Shown: positions 31,904 through 36,992 of the stretch, in pieces
Layout: every line of letters starts with the position of its first letter
Numbering within the stretch: position 1 is the stretch's first letter
Translations under genes and position numbers: made by a program
The notes under the pieces: generated by a model
The model's database searches: none
What the model saw: the letters and a program-made list of their open reading frames with translations, nothing else
Told to the model about the DNA's origin: nothing
NCBI GenBank assembly: GCA_016182965.1
Contig: JACPFM010000187.1
Location: forward strand, 1 to 64,000
Source of the DNA: Deltaproteobacteria bacterium
GTDB taxonomy: Bacteria > Myxococcota_A > Polyangia > Polyangiales > JADJMO01
Length of the DNA stretch: 64,000 bases
Direction: 5' to 3'

Positions 31904-32135
<232 letters not shown>

Positions 32136-32404
32136 GTGGGCTGCTGCGGCGCGTTCGACTCGTTCACCGGAGAAGCCAGACCAGCGTCGGCGCGTGGTCG
32201 AGCCGTCGGAGGCCCGGACGGAGGACGAGGGCGGGTCGCGAGGCGTGGACAGCGCCCTGTCAGGAGTGTCCTTGGGCAGCTGCGATCGAGTGTCTGGAAT
32301 GTCCTCGACCAGATGTGTCAGGGATCACCTCAATCCGTACCGTCTTTACCGTTGAGGAGGCCTTGACTTCGCGCCGCTCCGACCACATATATGCCATATT
32401 CAAG

Positions 32405-33103
32405 ATGCGACGGCTGACCTCCAGGCGGCGCCCCCGATCCGTCCAGCTCGAGCTCCCGATGCACCGCCACGGCGGAGCGCGGAAGGGCGCCGGGCGGCCG
32501 CGGAGCTCCACCAGGGTCACGCACGCCGCGCGCCCGCGGTTCGACGGCAGGCGCACGCCGCTCCACGTCACGCTGCGCATGGCGAAGGGTGTGTGGAACC
32601 TCCGGAGCCAGCGCGGCTACGCGTGCGTCGAGCACGCGCTGAAGGCCGAACGAGCGCTGCGCGGTCTGCGGGTCGTGCACTTCTCGGTGCAGGGCAACCA
32701 CCTGCACCTGATCGTCGAGGCCGACGATCGCGGCACGCTCTCGCGCCGCATGCAGGGCTTCGGCATCCGCTTCGCCAGGCGCGTGAACGCGATGATGGGG
32801 CGCCGTCGCGGCCGCGTGCTCGGCGACCGCTACCACGCCCGCGTGCTCGGCACCGCCCGCGAGGTGCACCGCGCGATCGCCTACGTCCTGCTCAATCACC
32901 TGAAGCACTCCGCGCAGGCCGGGCGCGTCGGCATCACGGTCGATCCCTTCTCCTCCGGCACGACCTTCGAGCACTTCGCTGAACCGGTGAAGCGCCCAAC
33001 GGGTACGGGCCCGCCTCCCGTCTCGCGGCCCGAGTCCTTCCTGCTGAGAATGGGCTGGCTGCGTCACGGCCCGATCTCGACGATCCGCCCGACGCCTCAC
33101 TGA
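32405..33103 (+). CDS. REP-associated tyrosine transposase (RAYT, IS200/IS605-like HUH nuclease)
   Basis: 232 aa. The Y1-transposase core is VHFSVQGNHLHLIVEADDRG (HLH is the HUH metal motif), preceded by TPLHVTLRM and followed by a helix with IAYVLLNHLKHS, where the tyrosine is the likely nucleophile. The basic N-terminus (GGARKGAGRPRS) is common in such proteins. No IS ends or TnpB gene flank it, so it is the single-copy, domesticated RAYT type that acts on REP palindromes. ATG 32405; the upstream 120 bases are unusually A+T-rich for this window. Confidence 0.85.
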   Translation: MRRLTSRRRPRSVQLELPMHRHGGARKGAGRPRSSTRVTHAARPRFDGRRTPLHVTLRMAKGVWNLRSQRGYACVEHALKAERALRGLRVVHFSVQGNHLHLIVEADDRGTLSRRMQGFGIRFARRVNAMMGRRRGRVLGDRYHARVLGTAREVHRAIAYVLLNHLKHSAQAGRVGITVDPFSSGTTFEHFAEPVKRPTGTGPPPVSRPESFLLRMGWLRHGPISTIRPTPH

Positions 33104-33213: not shown

Positions 33214-33334
33214 GATCGCGCGCTCCGAGCCAACGGTCTGCCAGCGATCACCGAGGACCGCCGAGAGCGACGCCTCGACGATCGCACCGCGCGCGTGCTC
33301 GTGGGGGTCTACGAATCGAATCCGCGCTTACGGA

Positions 33335-34352
33335 TCAGAACAGCGCCGGGATCGAGTACGGCGGCCATCGGTCGGCCCACGGGCGCGCCTGCTCGAGCTG
33401 GTAGGCGAGCCCGAACAGCAGCGCGTCGGCGCCGGGGGCGGCGGCGAGGTGCGCGCCGAGCGGAAGGCCGCGATCGGTCACGTGCAGCGGCACCGACATC
33501 GCGGGGCAGCCGGCGATGTTCTGGATGGTCGTGTAGCCGACCGCGCGCGCGGTGCGGCGGATCAGCTCCTCGCGCCCGAGGACCGGCGACAGGTGCCCGA
33601 GGCGCCATGGCTCGGTGGCGATCGTCGGCGTGAGCACGACGTCGAACCCGCGCGTGGTCGCCTCGCGCCAGGACCGGCGCGCGCACCGCCTCGGCGAAGA
33701 CACCGCGAGACCACGGGAGCGCGTCCGGGCCGCGCGCCTGGAACGCCTCGACGAGCGCCCAGGTGAACGGCTCGAGCTCGCGCGTCTGCACGGGAGAGCC
33801 ACGCATGCGATCGACCATGTCGACGACGCCGGCGATCGCCGCGCCGGCGACGAGGAAGAACGCCTCGCCGAGCGCGGGGCCGTCCGTCGTCGGCTGGGCG
33901 ATCTCCTCGACCTCGTGACCGAGCTCGCGCAGCAGCGCGATGGCCTGCCGGTGCGCCCGCACCACGGCGGGCTCGGCAGGCTCGTGCATCGCGGTGCGCG
34001 TCCAGGCGGCGACGCGCAGCTTGCGCGCGATCGGATCGCGGACGAAGCCGACCGGGTCGGTCGGGTCTTCGGTGAGCGAGAGGAACAGCGCGCTGTCGCG
34101 GGCCGACCGGCTGATGCAGTGATCGCTGGTCATGTCGAGGAAGTCGCTCGTGCCGAAGCTCGCCGGCACGGTGCGCCCGCGGCTCGGCTTGAAGCCGAAG
34201 AGGCCGCAGGCCGCCGCCGGGATGCGGATCGAGCCGCCGCCGTCGTTCGCGTGGGCGAGCGGCACGAGGCCGGCGGCGACCGCGGCCGCGCTGCCGCCCG
34301 ACGAGCCGGCCGCGGAGTACGAGACGAAGCTCCCGCCCATCGCCCACAGCAA
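33335..34352 (-). pseudogene. Amidase-signature enzyme, 5'-truncated and frameshifted
   Basis: The amidase signature is intact ([20 protein letters not shown], then [20 protein letters not shown]), resembling 6-aminohexanoate-dimer or aryl-amide hydrolases. The roughly 100 N-terminal residues with the catalytic lysine are missing: upstream of about 34345 homology stops. A one-base shift near 33665 moves the frame, with the C-terminus ([15 protein letters not shown] ... [11 protein letters not shown]) continuing in a second frame to 33335. Two independent lesions make a sequencing error an insufficient explanation. Confidence 0.75.
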
Positions 34353-34479
34353 GTACTACAACACCGTGACCCTCGAGGAGCGCGGCGACGCGATCATCCT
34401 CCGCGGCCACGAGTCGTCGGTCGAGCACGTGCACGTCTACGACGCTGCGACCGGCGCGCTGCGCCATCACGACCCGTGA
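34348..34479 (+). pseudogene. Orphan C-terminal fragment on the opposite strand
   Basis: The plus-strand frame [20 protein letters not shown] ... [17 protein letters not shown] looks like a genuine protein end, with balanced composition and C/G third positions. It begins exactly where amidase homology stops. I infer a rearrangement joined the tail of another gene to the amidase. Its family is not recognised. Confidence 0.4.
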
Positions 34480-34564
34480 CGTCGGGCAGATCGGCGTTCG
34501 AGCCGCCGTCGAGCGGGTAGCCGTCGTGGCCTCGGTCACCTCGTCGCCGGTCTGGCCCTTCACC

Positions 34565-35397
34565 TCACAGCGCGGCGATCGCCGCGCGCGCCGTGGCCGC
34601 GTGGATCGCGAGCACGGGCGCGATGCCGCCCCGCTCGTCGCGCTGGTAGCCGCCCGCGAGGTTCCACGCGACGGGCACGTCGAGCGCGCGCGCCGTGCGA
34701 AAGACGATCTCGTCGCGCCTCTGCAGCTGCGCGTCGTCGAGCCAGCCGCCGAGCGGATCGCGCACGTGAGGATCGGCCCCGGCCTGGTAGAGGATCACGT
34801 CGCAGTCGCGCATCGAGCGCACGCGCTCGGCGAGCGACGCGAGGAACCCCTCCGCCTGCTCGGCCCGACGGTACTCTGCGCCCGCGGTGAAGTGCCGAAC
34901 GCGCTCGCCGAGGTCCAGCCGGCGGAGGATGTCGTCGGTGCCGTCGCCGTAGTGCATGTCGCAGTCGAGGATGCCGATCGCGCGCGCGCCGCCCCCGAGG
35001 AGCGCGGTCGCCGTGACCATCAGGCCGTTGAACGTGCAGAACCCGCCGCCGTACGCGAAGCCGGCGTGATGGAAGCCCGAGCACGGCGCGCACGCGATCG
35101 TGCGTGCGCGATCGCGTGCCGCGCCGCCGAGAGCATCGCGCCCGACGTCCACGGCAGCGAGCGCGCGACGCCCGCCGAGCGGTCGCCGAAGCCGTTGGGC
35201 GCGCGGAGCGCGAGGACGTCGCGGACGTAGGCGCGATCGTGCGCGCGGAGGAGGTCGTCCTCGGAGGCCGGCGACGGCGCGTGCACGGCGAGGTCGAGCC
35301 CGAGGGCCTGCCAATCGGCGACGGCCCGCGCCGGCTTCTCGGCGCTCGGGGAGAAGGAGCTCGGGCGGGCGACCATCGCGGGGGCGAAGAGAGGCAT
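34565..35397 (-). pseudogene. Histone-deacetylase-family protein with an internal frameshift
   Basis: The N-terminal half starts at ATG 35397 (GGGAGGG upstream) with MPLFAPAMVARPSSFSPSAE and runs in one frame to about 35105. The rest continues in another frame with the catalytic motifs GFHHAGFAYGGGFCTFNG, DCDMHYGDGTDD, QAGADPH and GGYQRDERG. All zinc ligands and the catalytic tyrosine remain, so the lesion is recent or an assembly error. The shift falls in a self-complementary run, GCGATCGTGCGTGCGCGATC, prone to slippage or misreading. Confidence 0.75.
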
Positions 35398-35602
35398 GAC
35401 CCTCCCCGTGCAGTCGGGGCACTTCGCCGGGCTCTTGCCGACGCTCGTCCGCTCCGAGCTTCCGGCGCCGAAGTTCAGGGAGCTGCGCGTAGGCGGCCGG
35501 CACGCGTCGAGGCTGCACCTCGCGTGGGCGTCGTCGCTGACGAGGATCCGGCCCGGCGCCGAGCGTGTCCTCGAGCGACTGCACGAGGCGCTCACCGCGT
35601 AG
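35396..35602 (+). pseudogene. Possible orphan protein tail (aminotransferase-like end)
   Basis: A plus-strand frame ends RLHLAWASSLTRIRPGAERV then LERLHEALTA, the cadence of fold-type I aminotransferase C-termini. It has normal codon bias, but no body of such a gene lies upstream and it is antisense-adjacent to the deacetylase start. Treat it as a weak relic call. Confidence 0.25.
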
Positions 35603-35737
35603 ACTCATCGAGGATCGGTCGCGATTCTCGGCCAACCGGCGTCGCTGGCCCCGCGTGCCCGATGATTCCTGCCACCGCGTCGATTCCCTGATCCAGGTCG
35701 GGCGATCTCGATCGTTGCGAGGCTGCGCCCCCGCGGC

Positions 35738-36121
35738 TCACGAATGGGAAGCGCCAGCGAGGCGCCGCACCTCGTGGATGAGCGCTCGCGCGACCGTCGG
35801 CTTGGACAGCACCGGCGCCGTCACGTCGCGCAAGAACCCGGCGAACCGCGGATCCTCGCCGCCGGTCAGGAACACGACCCGCGCTGCCTGGTCGGAGAAC
35901 TCGCGCGCGAGCGTCTCGTAGAAGGTCTGTCCGTCGAGGTGCGGCATGGAGAGGTCGCACACGATCGCGTCGAAGCGGTCGCCCGCCCGCAGGAGCGCCA
36001 GCGCCGAACGGGCGTCGTCGAGCGTGGTCACTTCGAACTCCCGCAGGATTCGCGCCGTGACGAGGAGGACGTCGGTTTGGTCATCGATGACGAGGATGCG
36101 TGTGCCTTGTCGTGCGGCCAT
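35738..36121 (-). CDS. Single-domain response regulator
   Basis: 127 aa receiver domain only: acidic pair in VIDDQTDV, phospho-acceptor Asp in VCDLSMPHLDG, Thr in VFLTGGED and Lys in LSKPT. With no output domain it probably acts by protein contact in a phosphorelay. It is divergent from a LexA/CI-type repressor; a perfect palindrome lies one base before its ATG. Confidence 0.9.
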   Translation of the reverse strand: MAARQGTRILVIDDQTDVLLVTARILREFEVTTLDDARSALALLRAGDRFDAIVCDLSMPHLDGQTFYETLAREFSDQAARVVFLTGGEDPRFAGFLRDVTAPVLSKPTVARALIHEVRRLAGASHS

Positions 36122-36141
36122 TGGTTCGTCTTGACGAACCA
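36122..36141. promoter_or_regulatory. Perfect 20-bp palindrome TGGTTCGTC-TT-GACGAACCA
   Basis: Nine-base arms with a two-base centre, abutting the response-regulator start and 36 bases before the repressor start. Position and symmetry are those of a CI/LexA-type operator controlling both divergent genes, most likely bound by the adjacent repressor. Confidence 0.65.
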
Positions 36142-36160
36142 GTGTGGCCTCCGGCCCGAG

Positions 36161-36166
36161 TAGCGT
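36161..36166 (+). promoter_or_regulatory. -10-like TAGCGT before the repressor gene
   Basis: TAGCGT ends ten bases before ATG 36177, giving a leader of only a few bases. It supports ATG 36177 over the in-frame GTG 36144. Confidence 0.4.
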
Positions 36167-36176
36167 CAATCCCGCC

Positions 36177-36992
36177 ATGCCGCGGCGATCGGCGCCCGAC
36201 CCCCTGTCGCGTCGGATCGGCGAGCGAATCCATGAGCTGCGACTCGAGGCCGGCTTGACGCTCGAGAAGCTGGCGTACGAGAGCGAGCTCGGCTCCAAGG
36301 GGCACTTGTCCGACTTGGAGCGTGGTCTCGTCCAGCCGACCGTCGGAACGCTCGCGGTGATCGCGCGACGGCTAGGTGTGCTCCTGCTCGACCTCGTGAC
36401 GTTCACCGAGGATGGGCCGCGCGCGTTGCTTGTGGAGACGTCGCGCCGCGCGCCCCCCGCGGAGGTCGCGACCGCCCTGCGCGCGTTCGGTCGAGAACCA
36501 GGCGGCGAGCCCTTCCGTATCGTGCGGCGGCCGCCGCCCGCCAAACAGAGAGTGGACGCGATCCCGCTCTACGATCTCGCGGCGGCGGCGGGCGCCTTCG
36601 GCGAGGGACGCGCCGTCGAGGCGCGGGCGTGGGTGGTGCCGCGCTCCATGCGCGTCCTGCGGCCGGGGATGTTCGTCGTGAGGGCGACCGGCAGATCGAT
36701 GGAACCCCGCATTCCAGACGGCGCGTACTGCGTCTTCATGGGCCCGGTCCGCAGCACACCGGTCGGGCGCGTCGTCCTCGTGGAGCATCGGTCCGTCGGC
36801 GACCCGGAGACCGGCGGCGCGTACTCCATCAAGCGACTGCAGTTACGGCCGGGCAAGCGCCGGCGCGGGATTCGGCTCGTCCCGGACAACGCCGAGTATC
36901 CCGCCCTCGAGATCGATGACCGGTCATCCATCCGCGTCATCGGCGAGTTGGTGGCGGTGCTCGGGCTCGGTCCCGGGATCGCCTCGGGGTGA
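36177..36992 (+). CDS. XRE-HTH / S24 LexA-like self-cleaving repressor
   Basis: 271 aa. An N-terminal XRE helix-turn-helix (LSRRIGERIHELRLEAGLTL ... ELGSKGHLSDLERG) is followed by a linker and a C-terminal S24 peptidase domain. The Ser is in ATGRSMEPRIPDGAYCVF, the Lys in GAYSIKRLQL, and AAAAGAFGEG looks like the Ala-Gly self-cleavage site. This is the phage-CI/LexA design, so repression could be lifted by RecA or another co-protease. No other phage genes are nearby, so it probably runs a local circuit with the response regulator. Confidence 0.85.
   Translation: MPRRSAPDPLSRRIGERIHELRLEAGLTLEKLAYESELGSKGHLSDLERGLVQPTVGTLAVIARRLGVLLLDLVTFTEDGPRALLVETSRRAPPAEVATALRAFGREPGGEPFRIVRRPPPAKQRVDAIPLYDLAAAAGAFGEGRAVEARAWVVPRSMRVLRPGMFVVRATGRSMEPRIPDGAYCVFMGPVRSTPVGRVVLVEHRSVGDPETGGAYSIKRLQLRPGKRRRGIRLVPDNAEYPALEIDDRSSIRVIGELVAVLGLGPGIASG

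Follow-up and report, generated by a model that had tools for sequence, protein, structure and literature searches.

An XRE-S24 repressor gene and a divergent gene for a lone receiver protein share a 55-bp spacer, which harbors a palindrome that comparison among relatives supports as the predicted operator of the repressor's XRE family. We consider it rather probable that the repressor is autoregulated, co-controls the receiver via this operator and is released by self-cleavage of its S24 domain. The parts themselves, the conserved position of the operator and the recurrence of operator plus receiver with a matching operator class were observed directly. The stretch analyzed here (the window; 64,000 nt, G000:C46:1–64000) stems from the 9.59-Mb draft, in 226 contigs, of a soil genome resembling those of myxobacteria.

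The repressor gene (ATG at 36177 to stop at 36992, + strand) encodes a 271-aa protein classed by Pfam and PHROG as an XRE-S24 (CI/LexA-type) repressor. A Pfam scan returned HTH_31 (4e-7) and HTH_3 (2e-6) at residues 14–69 and Peptidase_S24 (E = 4.3e-11) at residues 131–259; PF13560 and PF01381 both scored above cut-off, as expected for an XRE-type HTH, and the best PHROG match was 'transcriptional repressor' (1.4e-27). The HTH domain (residues 13–70; 36213–36386, +) contains the recognition-helix stretch GSKGHLSDLERGL, which covaries with operator class. Assignment of the S24 domain (36567–36953, +) relies on PF00717 scoring above cut-off, on an agreeing fold, and on the presence of a predicted self-cleavage dipeptide, Ala138-Gly139, within AAAAGAF (36588–36593, +) along with the predicted catalytic Ser174 (36696–36698, +) and Lys219 (36831–36833, +), with 35 residues from G139 to S174 and 45 from S174 to K219. 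The original prediction of an HTH, an AAAAGAF cleavage site and a Ser/Lys dyad is thus borne out. All of these residues are kept in the closest full-length relative and in most aligned S24 relatives; one of the latter (L093) lacks both the Gly and the Lys, and another (L008) was left out of the residue comparison because it was in the wrong frame. When the S24 domain alone was modeled with AlphaFold2, one good model of five was obtained (pLDDT 83 vs. ≤60), whose best PDB matches were the lambda CI C-domain, LexA and UmuD'; a whole-repressor prediction (two sequences) was poor (pLDDT 43) and left unused. Given the conserved A138-G139, S174 and K219 and the modeled fold, the repressor is probably self-cutting.

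On the opposite strand, at 35738–36121, lies the lone response regulator that had been predicted to diverge from the repressor. This 127-aa protein consists of a receiver domain only (Pfam Response_reg, 2e-14) and retains all five phosphorylation residues (D13, D14, D56, T86 and K107), i.e. it is a single-domain response regulator. Its closest NCBIfam similarity is to the EspA/EspC receiver domains, far under the cut-off, and no histidine kinase was recognized beside it by Pfam among 10 neighbor ORFs.

The palindrome between the two genes, TGGTTCGTC-TT-GACGAACCA, occupies positions 36122–36141 and includes a conserved core, GTTCGTCNNGACGAAC (36124–36139). It had been described as a perfect 20-bp palindrome; while its placement between both genes holds, its 9+2+9 architecture has an asymmetric central TT, so that 18 of the 20 bases are symmetric. 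It abuts the ATG of the receiver gene and ends 36 bp before that of the repressor gene, from which the predicted operator core is positioned at –53. As the window holds 31 comparable overlapping inverted repeats (arms of 9, spacer 0–8), a palindrome as such is not rare; what exceeds chance is that it lies in the 55-bp spacer of a divergent pair and is conserved upstream of relatives. By eye, a possible –10 element of the repressor promoter, TAGCGT (36161–36166, +), can be discerned, with TAGNNT similarly placed in relatives, as well as a weak candidate promoter for the receiver gene, TTGACG-17-CACACT (36141–36169, –), whose –10 touches the operator. A sigma-70-type promoter scan yielded nothing over threshold, including for these two candidates.

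Comparison across the HTH family gives the palindrome its predicted role. Of 44 HTH-family rows, 11 have the motif GTTYG-N6-CRAAC starting at –56 to –46 relative to the start codon. Members sharing their first 60 residues or having <70 bp upstream had been removed from this set, start codons were picked by similarity to the query, and the second half of the L235 protein counts as a row of its own. The motif occupies that position in 2 of 898 non-family genes, both of which represent one unrelated repeat counted from two sides. The 33 family rows devoid of the motif at this position include many Polyangium paralogues; G020 and G226 also carry operators, though they fell below the score cut of this count. 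The closest full-length relative, that of G023 (53% identity; contig CANJUR010000031.1), has GTTCGTC-NN-GACGAAC at –51 and –120, its genus-mate G398 has a pair of sites, one of which carries a single mismatch, and the XRE-S24 gene of G440 has the motif at –51/–116. Two operators thus precede each of the S24 relatives in G023 and G440, and one precedes the window copy. By eye, genes with an operator often also show a TAGNNT-like –10 about 20 bp downstream of it, near the ATG. Moreover, operator class follows the recognition helix: SKGHLS/GKGHLS occurs with GTTYGTC, GRGY/GRGH with GTTCGGG or GTTCGAG, and SKGQLS with GTTTGGA. As a separate observation, GTTCGCGCGCTCGAAC is located between two unrelated genes that diverge from each other (L101, about 491–578) and may reflect chance or another operator.

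The genome search for the palindrome that had been suggested as a means to define a regulon returned a single site in the 9.6-Mb draft and, hence, no regulon. Indeed, the exact degenerate form of the operator occurs once in the own genome (G000), and a tolerance of three mismatches gave eight sites vs. six for the control. Exact copies of GTTCGTCNNGACGAAC number 12–15 in three Polyangium-genus (g48) genomes and four in a fourth (G361), compared to 0–1 copies of the reversed pattern in those genomes, a control that proved too lenient for such counts. We rejected a Polyangium-genus regulon as a coding artefact, with every site examined lying inside genes and reading in frame as Phe-Val-x-Thr-Asn. 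In a first set, all 23 site rows (21 distinct; g48 and a few other genomes) fell inside called genes. Among a second set of 24 site rows, the intergenic calls comprised only the two G023 sites and one in L118, the latter judged to lie inside a 216-aa ORF; the window's own site was labeled 'inside' solely owing to a spurious antisense ORF.

HTH-family members were found next to lone receivers in two further arrangements. Four genomes of the genus Labilithrix (g24), namely G366, G448, G451 and G452, have a lone receiver gene behind the gene of an HTH-only relative (locus A). The GTTTGTC-type operator between the two genes is perfect in G366 and G448, half-kept in G451 and absent from G452. No operator is present upstream of this HTH gene itself, and autoregulation is therefore not universal in the family. 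The second arrangement, locus B, occurs in G448 and G366: the gene of a GRGYVS-type regulator, which has the operator GTTCGGGAGCACGAAC, is placed tail-to-tail with another lone receiver gene. In G448, GTTCGGGCGACCGAAC lies 34 bp before the ATG of this receiver gene; its G366 counterpart is preceded by a degenerate version. With GTTCGGGCGACCGAAC beside a GRGYVS-type regulator, the receiver operator matches the class expected for the neighboring HTH. Upstream of the locus B regulator, we also noticed a second, degenerate receiver-like ORF (L222:6185–6817, –). Across 50 family loci (519 kb; not independent, as four represent locus A and two locus B), seven of the nine receiver ORFs detected lay no more than 165 bp from a family gene; the search model had itself been derived from receivers of the window and of locus A. 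The receivers of the three arrangements share 25–34% identity, which argues for separate recruitment; the independent arrangements amount to these three only, two of them within one genus. As the receiver-bearing Labilithrix regulators are devoid of S24, cleavage would not be general to the regulator-receiver pairing. The operator is also placed differently, namely at the receiver ATG in the window vs. upstream of a –10 in Labilithrix. Taken together, the comparison supports a recurrent association of HTH-family members with adjoining lone receiver genes that carry the family operator, and, judged from the sequences, the pairing seems to reflect genuine gene control.

Other members of the family are found with defence genes. 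The XRE-S24 gene of G023 is divergent from SspB, SspC and SspD (PADLOC E = 8e-91, 6e-280 and 3e-115), the same Ssp arrangement recurs at a contig edge in G398, and in G440 the genes diverging from the XRE-S24 gene are those for HmaA and HmaB. Furthermore, there are long ORFs whose C-terminal domains share up to 48% identity with the S24 domain of the window repressor; one of these ORFs is an HsdR-like restriction helicase. Given these SspBCD, Hma and HsdR-like associations, the S24 branch of the window repressor keeps defence company; no defence gene was recognized next to the window copy among the 10 Pfam-scanned neighbor ORFs. As to the long ORFs, Pfam and PADLOC both identify L100:2675–6226 (G105) as an HsdR-like restriction helicase with a C-terminal S24 domain containing an Ala-Gly site, possibly constituting a self-cleaving restriction enzyme, and L256:851–4453, from a viral contig, likewise has a C-terminal S24 domain with an Ala-Gly site and a start resembling that of L100. 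Other same-genus XRE-S24 genes (L035:7117–7863, L036:6586–7305 and L037:6433–7182) were noted by eye beside serine/threonine kinase genes, two of these loci also featuring PEGA-like and kelch-like genes in what appears to be a recurrent cassette.

The locus itself is variable. At the window-equivalent position, the acyl-CoA dehydrogenase and ccm genes are 306 bp apart in G002, separated by a 694-aa ORF in G004 and by about 13 kb of other genes in G001; in G003, the contig ends here. The repressor-receiver pair is hence absent from this locus in all three testable relatives, making it an accessory insertion at a variable site. A family HTH was not found in G001–G003 at E ≤ 1e-15, and the copy of G004 lies elsewhere. 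Adjacent to the pair (33309–35635, –), an amidase gene (33312–34352 and 33338–33802) and a histone-deacetylase-like gene (34568–35635) are split over frames; the amidase has no N-terminus, its Pfam positions 124–281 and 355–444 being in different frames, and both genes may be pseudogenes or assembly errors. A long ORF at 32120–33103 (+), without a Pfam match at 1e-4, presumably resembles a Y1/REP-type transposase.

From these data we infer binding, repression, cleavage, a trigger and a role for the receiver. The XRE-S24 repressor would bind as a dimer to the single palindromic operator of the spacer and thereby block its own promoter, the operator being just upstream of the TAGCGT –10, as well as the divergent receiver promoter, where the operator would cover start site and start codon. 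The S24 domain would cut the A138-G139 bond, presumably on a RecA-filament-like or other stress signal, and loss of the repressor would release both genes, such that the receiver is made and may take phosphate from a partner kinase encoded elsewhere.

The most serious challenge to this autoregulated switch comes from the defence-associated relatives. Conceivably, the repressor is the stranded controller of a defence cassette, its operator is purely autoregulatory and the receiver is a chance neighbor at a variable locus, a reading to which we accord perhaps one chance in a handful or slightly better. The divergent SspBCD and HmaA/HmaB genes at the two-operator full-length relatives in G023 and G440 speak for it, as does the location of the pair, a variable insertion between acyl-CoA dehydrogenase and ccm genes with broken neighbor genes, whereas the lone receivers with matching operator class beside family members in two other loci and the operator abutting the receiver start codon argue against it. 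Somewhat less likely again is that the phosphorylated receiver acts on the repressor as an anti-repressor or co-repressor. The receiver would then be both input and output of a feedback switch combining two-component and CI-type control. Three unrelated receivers would have been recruited to this switch, and related family members would use the same operator to run anti-phage systems. The idea calls for regulators without a sensor of their own, and the HTH-only members beside receivers have no sensory domain.

That the repressor is a leftover of a phage or mobile element is improbable in our view. While its domain order is CI-like, its best PHROG match is a phage transcriptional repressor and some HTH relatives lie near apparent phage-type genes in G004 and G020 (as read from the sequence), the window repressor is not positioned among phage genes. 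The original prediction had noted that phage genes do not flank it, and this stands: the PHROG search detected no structural or integration family among 10 neighbor ORFs, four of which gave matches (one serine-threonine kinase, three of unknown function). A scan of viral contigs with the repressor protein recovered no relative, and the same scan with the S24 alignment recovered 12 loci, the two closest being long helicase-type ORFs (by eye). Location in a prophage absent from relatives had been named as an outcome that would count against the proposed switch; the pair is indeed absent from this locus in relatives, yet a prophage was not seen. Least credible of all, to the point of being nearly negligible, is canonical SOS control, with the site as a LexA box and the pair in the SOS regulon. 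Though the repressor has a LexA-type S24 domain, the LexA model is not among its NCBIfam matches. The three matches to this model (TIGR00498) in the own genome all lie elsewhere, two of them over the cut-off (G000:C115:52471–53154 and G000:C153:6839–7477), and the palindrome, with one site only in the genome, differs from the Myxococcus xanthus SOS box printed in PMC9705874. Since the genome encodes two further proteins that exceed the LexA cut-off, and since the site is unlike this SOS box, a direct LexA link is unlikely. Of the switch proposed at the outset, the operator and its coupling to the receiver gain support, whereas the SOS-like connection, the damage trigger and the downstream phosphorelay do not.

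If the autoregulated switch is correct, a repressor of the self-cleaving type would have a concrete way of dosing a stand-alone receiver, and phosphotransfer would thereby be coupled to the sensing of stress or phage. A small, testable family of myxobacterial regulators with predicted sites would emerge from the recurrence of the operator, from the agreement between operator class and recognition helix and from the Ssp/Hma link.

The open literature that we searched contained no description of this operator or of an XRE-S24/lone-receiver pair. Judged by its sequence, the repressor is a member of the CI-type family and not LexA. It shares with lambda CI-type repressors an N-terminal XRE HTH, an Ala-Gly linker, a C-terminal S24 Ser/Lys dyad and a shared divergent operator (predicted here), and lambda CI is the closest PDB match of its S24 model; it differs in residing in no recognizable prophage, in having a lone receiver as partner and in its single operator. 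S24 fold and cleavage-type residues are held in common with LexA, but the HTH is of the XRE type instead of the winged helix of LexA, no regulon was found, and the genome has its own LexA. The neighboring protein, receiver-only and with all phosphorylation residues kept, resembles single-domain response regulators of the CheY/Spo0F/DivK type, from which it differs in that its candidate promoter sits on a predicted XRE operator. Among other regulators, PMC11999139 reports a repressor of the Xre family that acts on ctrA and chpT. DdiA of Myxococcus xanthus, an XRE regulator in a LexA-independent damage response, is described in the accessible part of PMC12288472 as having an N-terminal HTH and a short helical C-terminus, a description by which it can be likened, also in size, to the HTH-only relatives; unlike for the window repressor, S24 is not mentioned for it in that part. 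RptR, a small DNA-binding autorepressor linked to anti-phage genes, recognizes a 6-bp palindrome and shows no S24 in the portion of PMC12255303 at hand, in contrast to the XRE-S24 architecture, the 16-bp core and the neighborhood without recognized defence genes in the window. In principle, then, small autorepressors controlling defence genes are already known from RptR (PMC12255303, same portion), and the relatives of the window repressor in G023 and G440, situated at SspBCD and Hma defence genes, resemble it in this respect.
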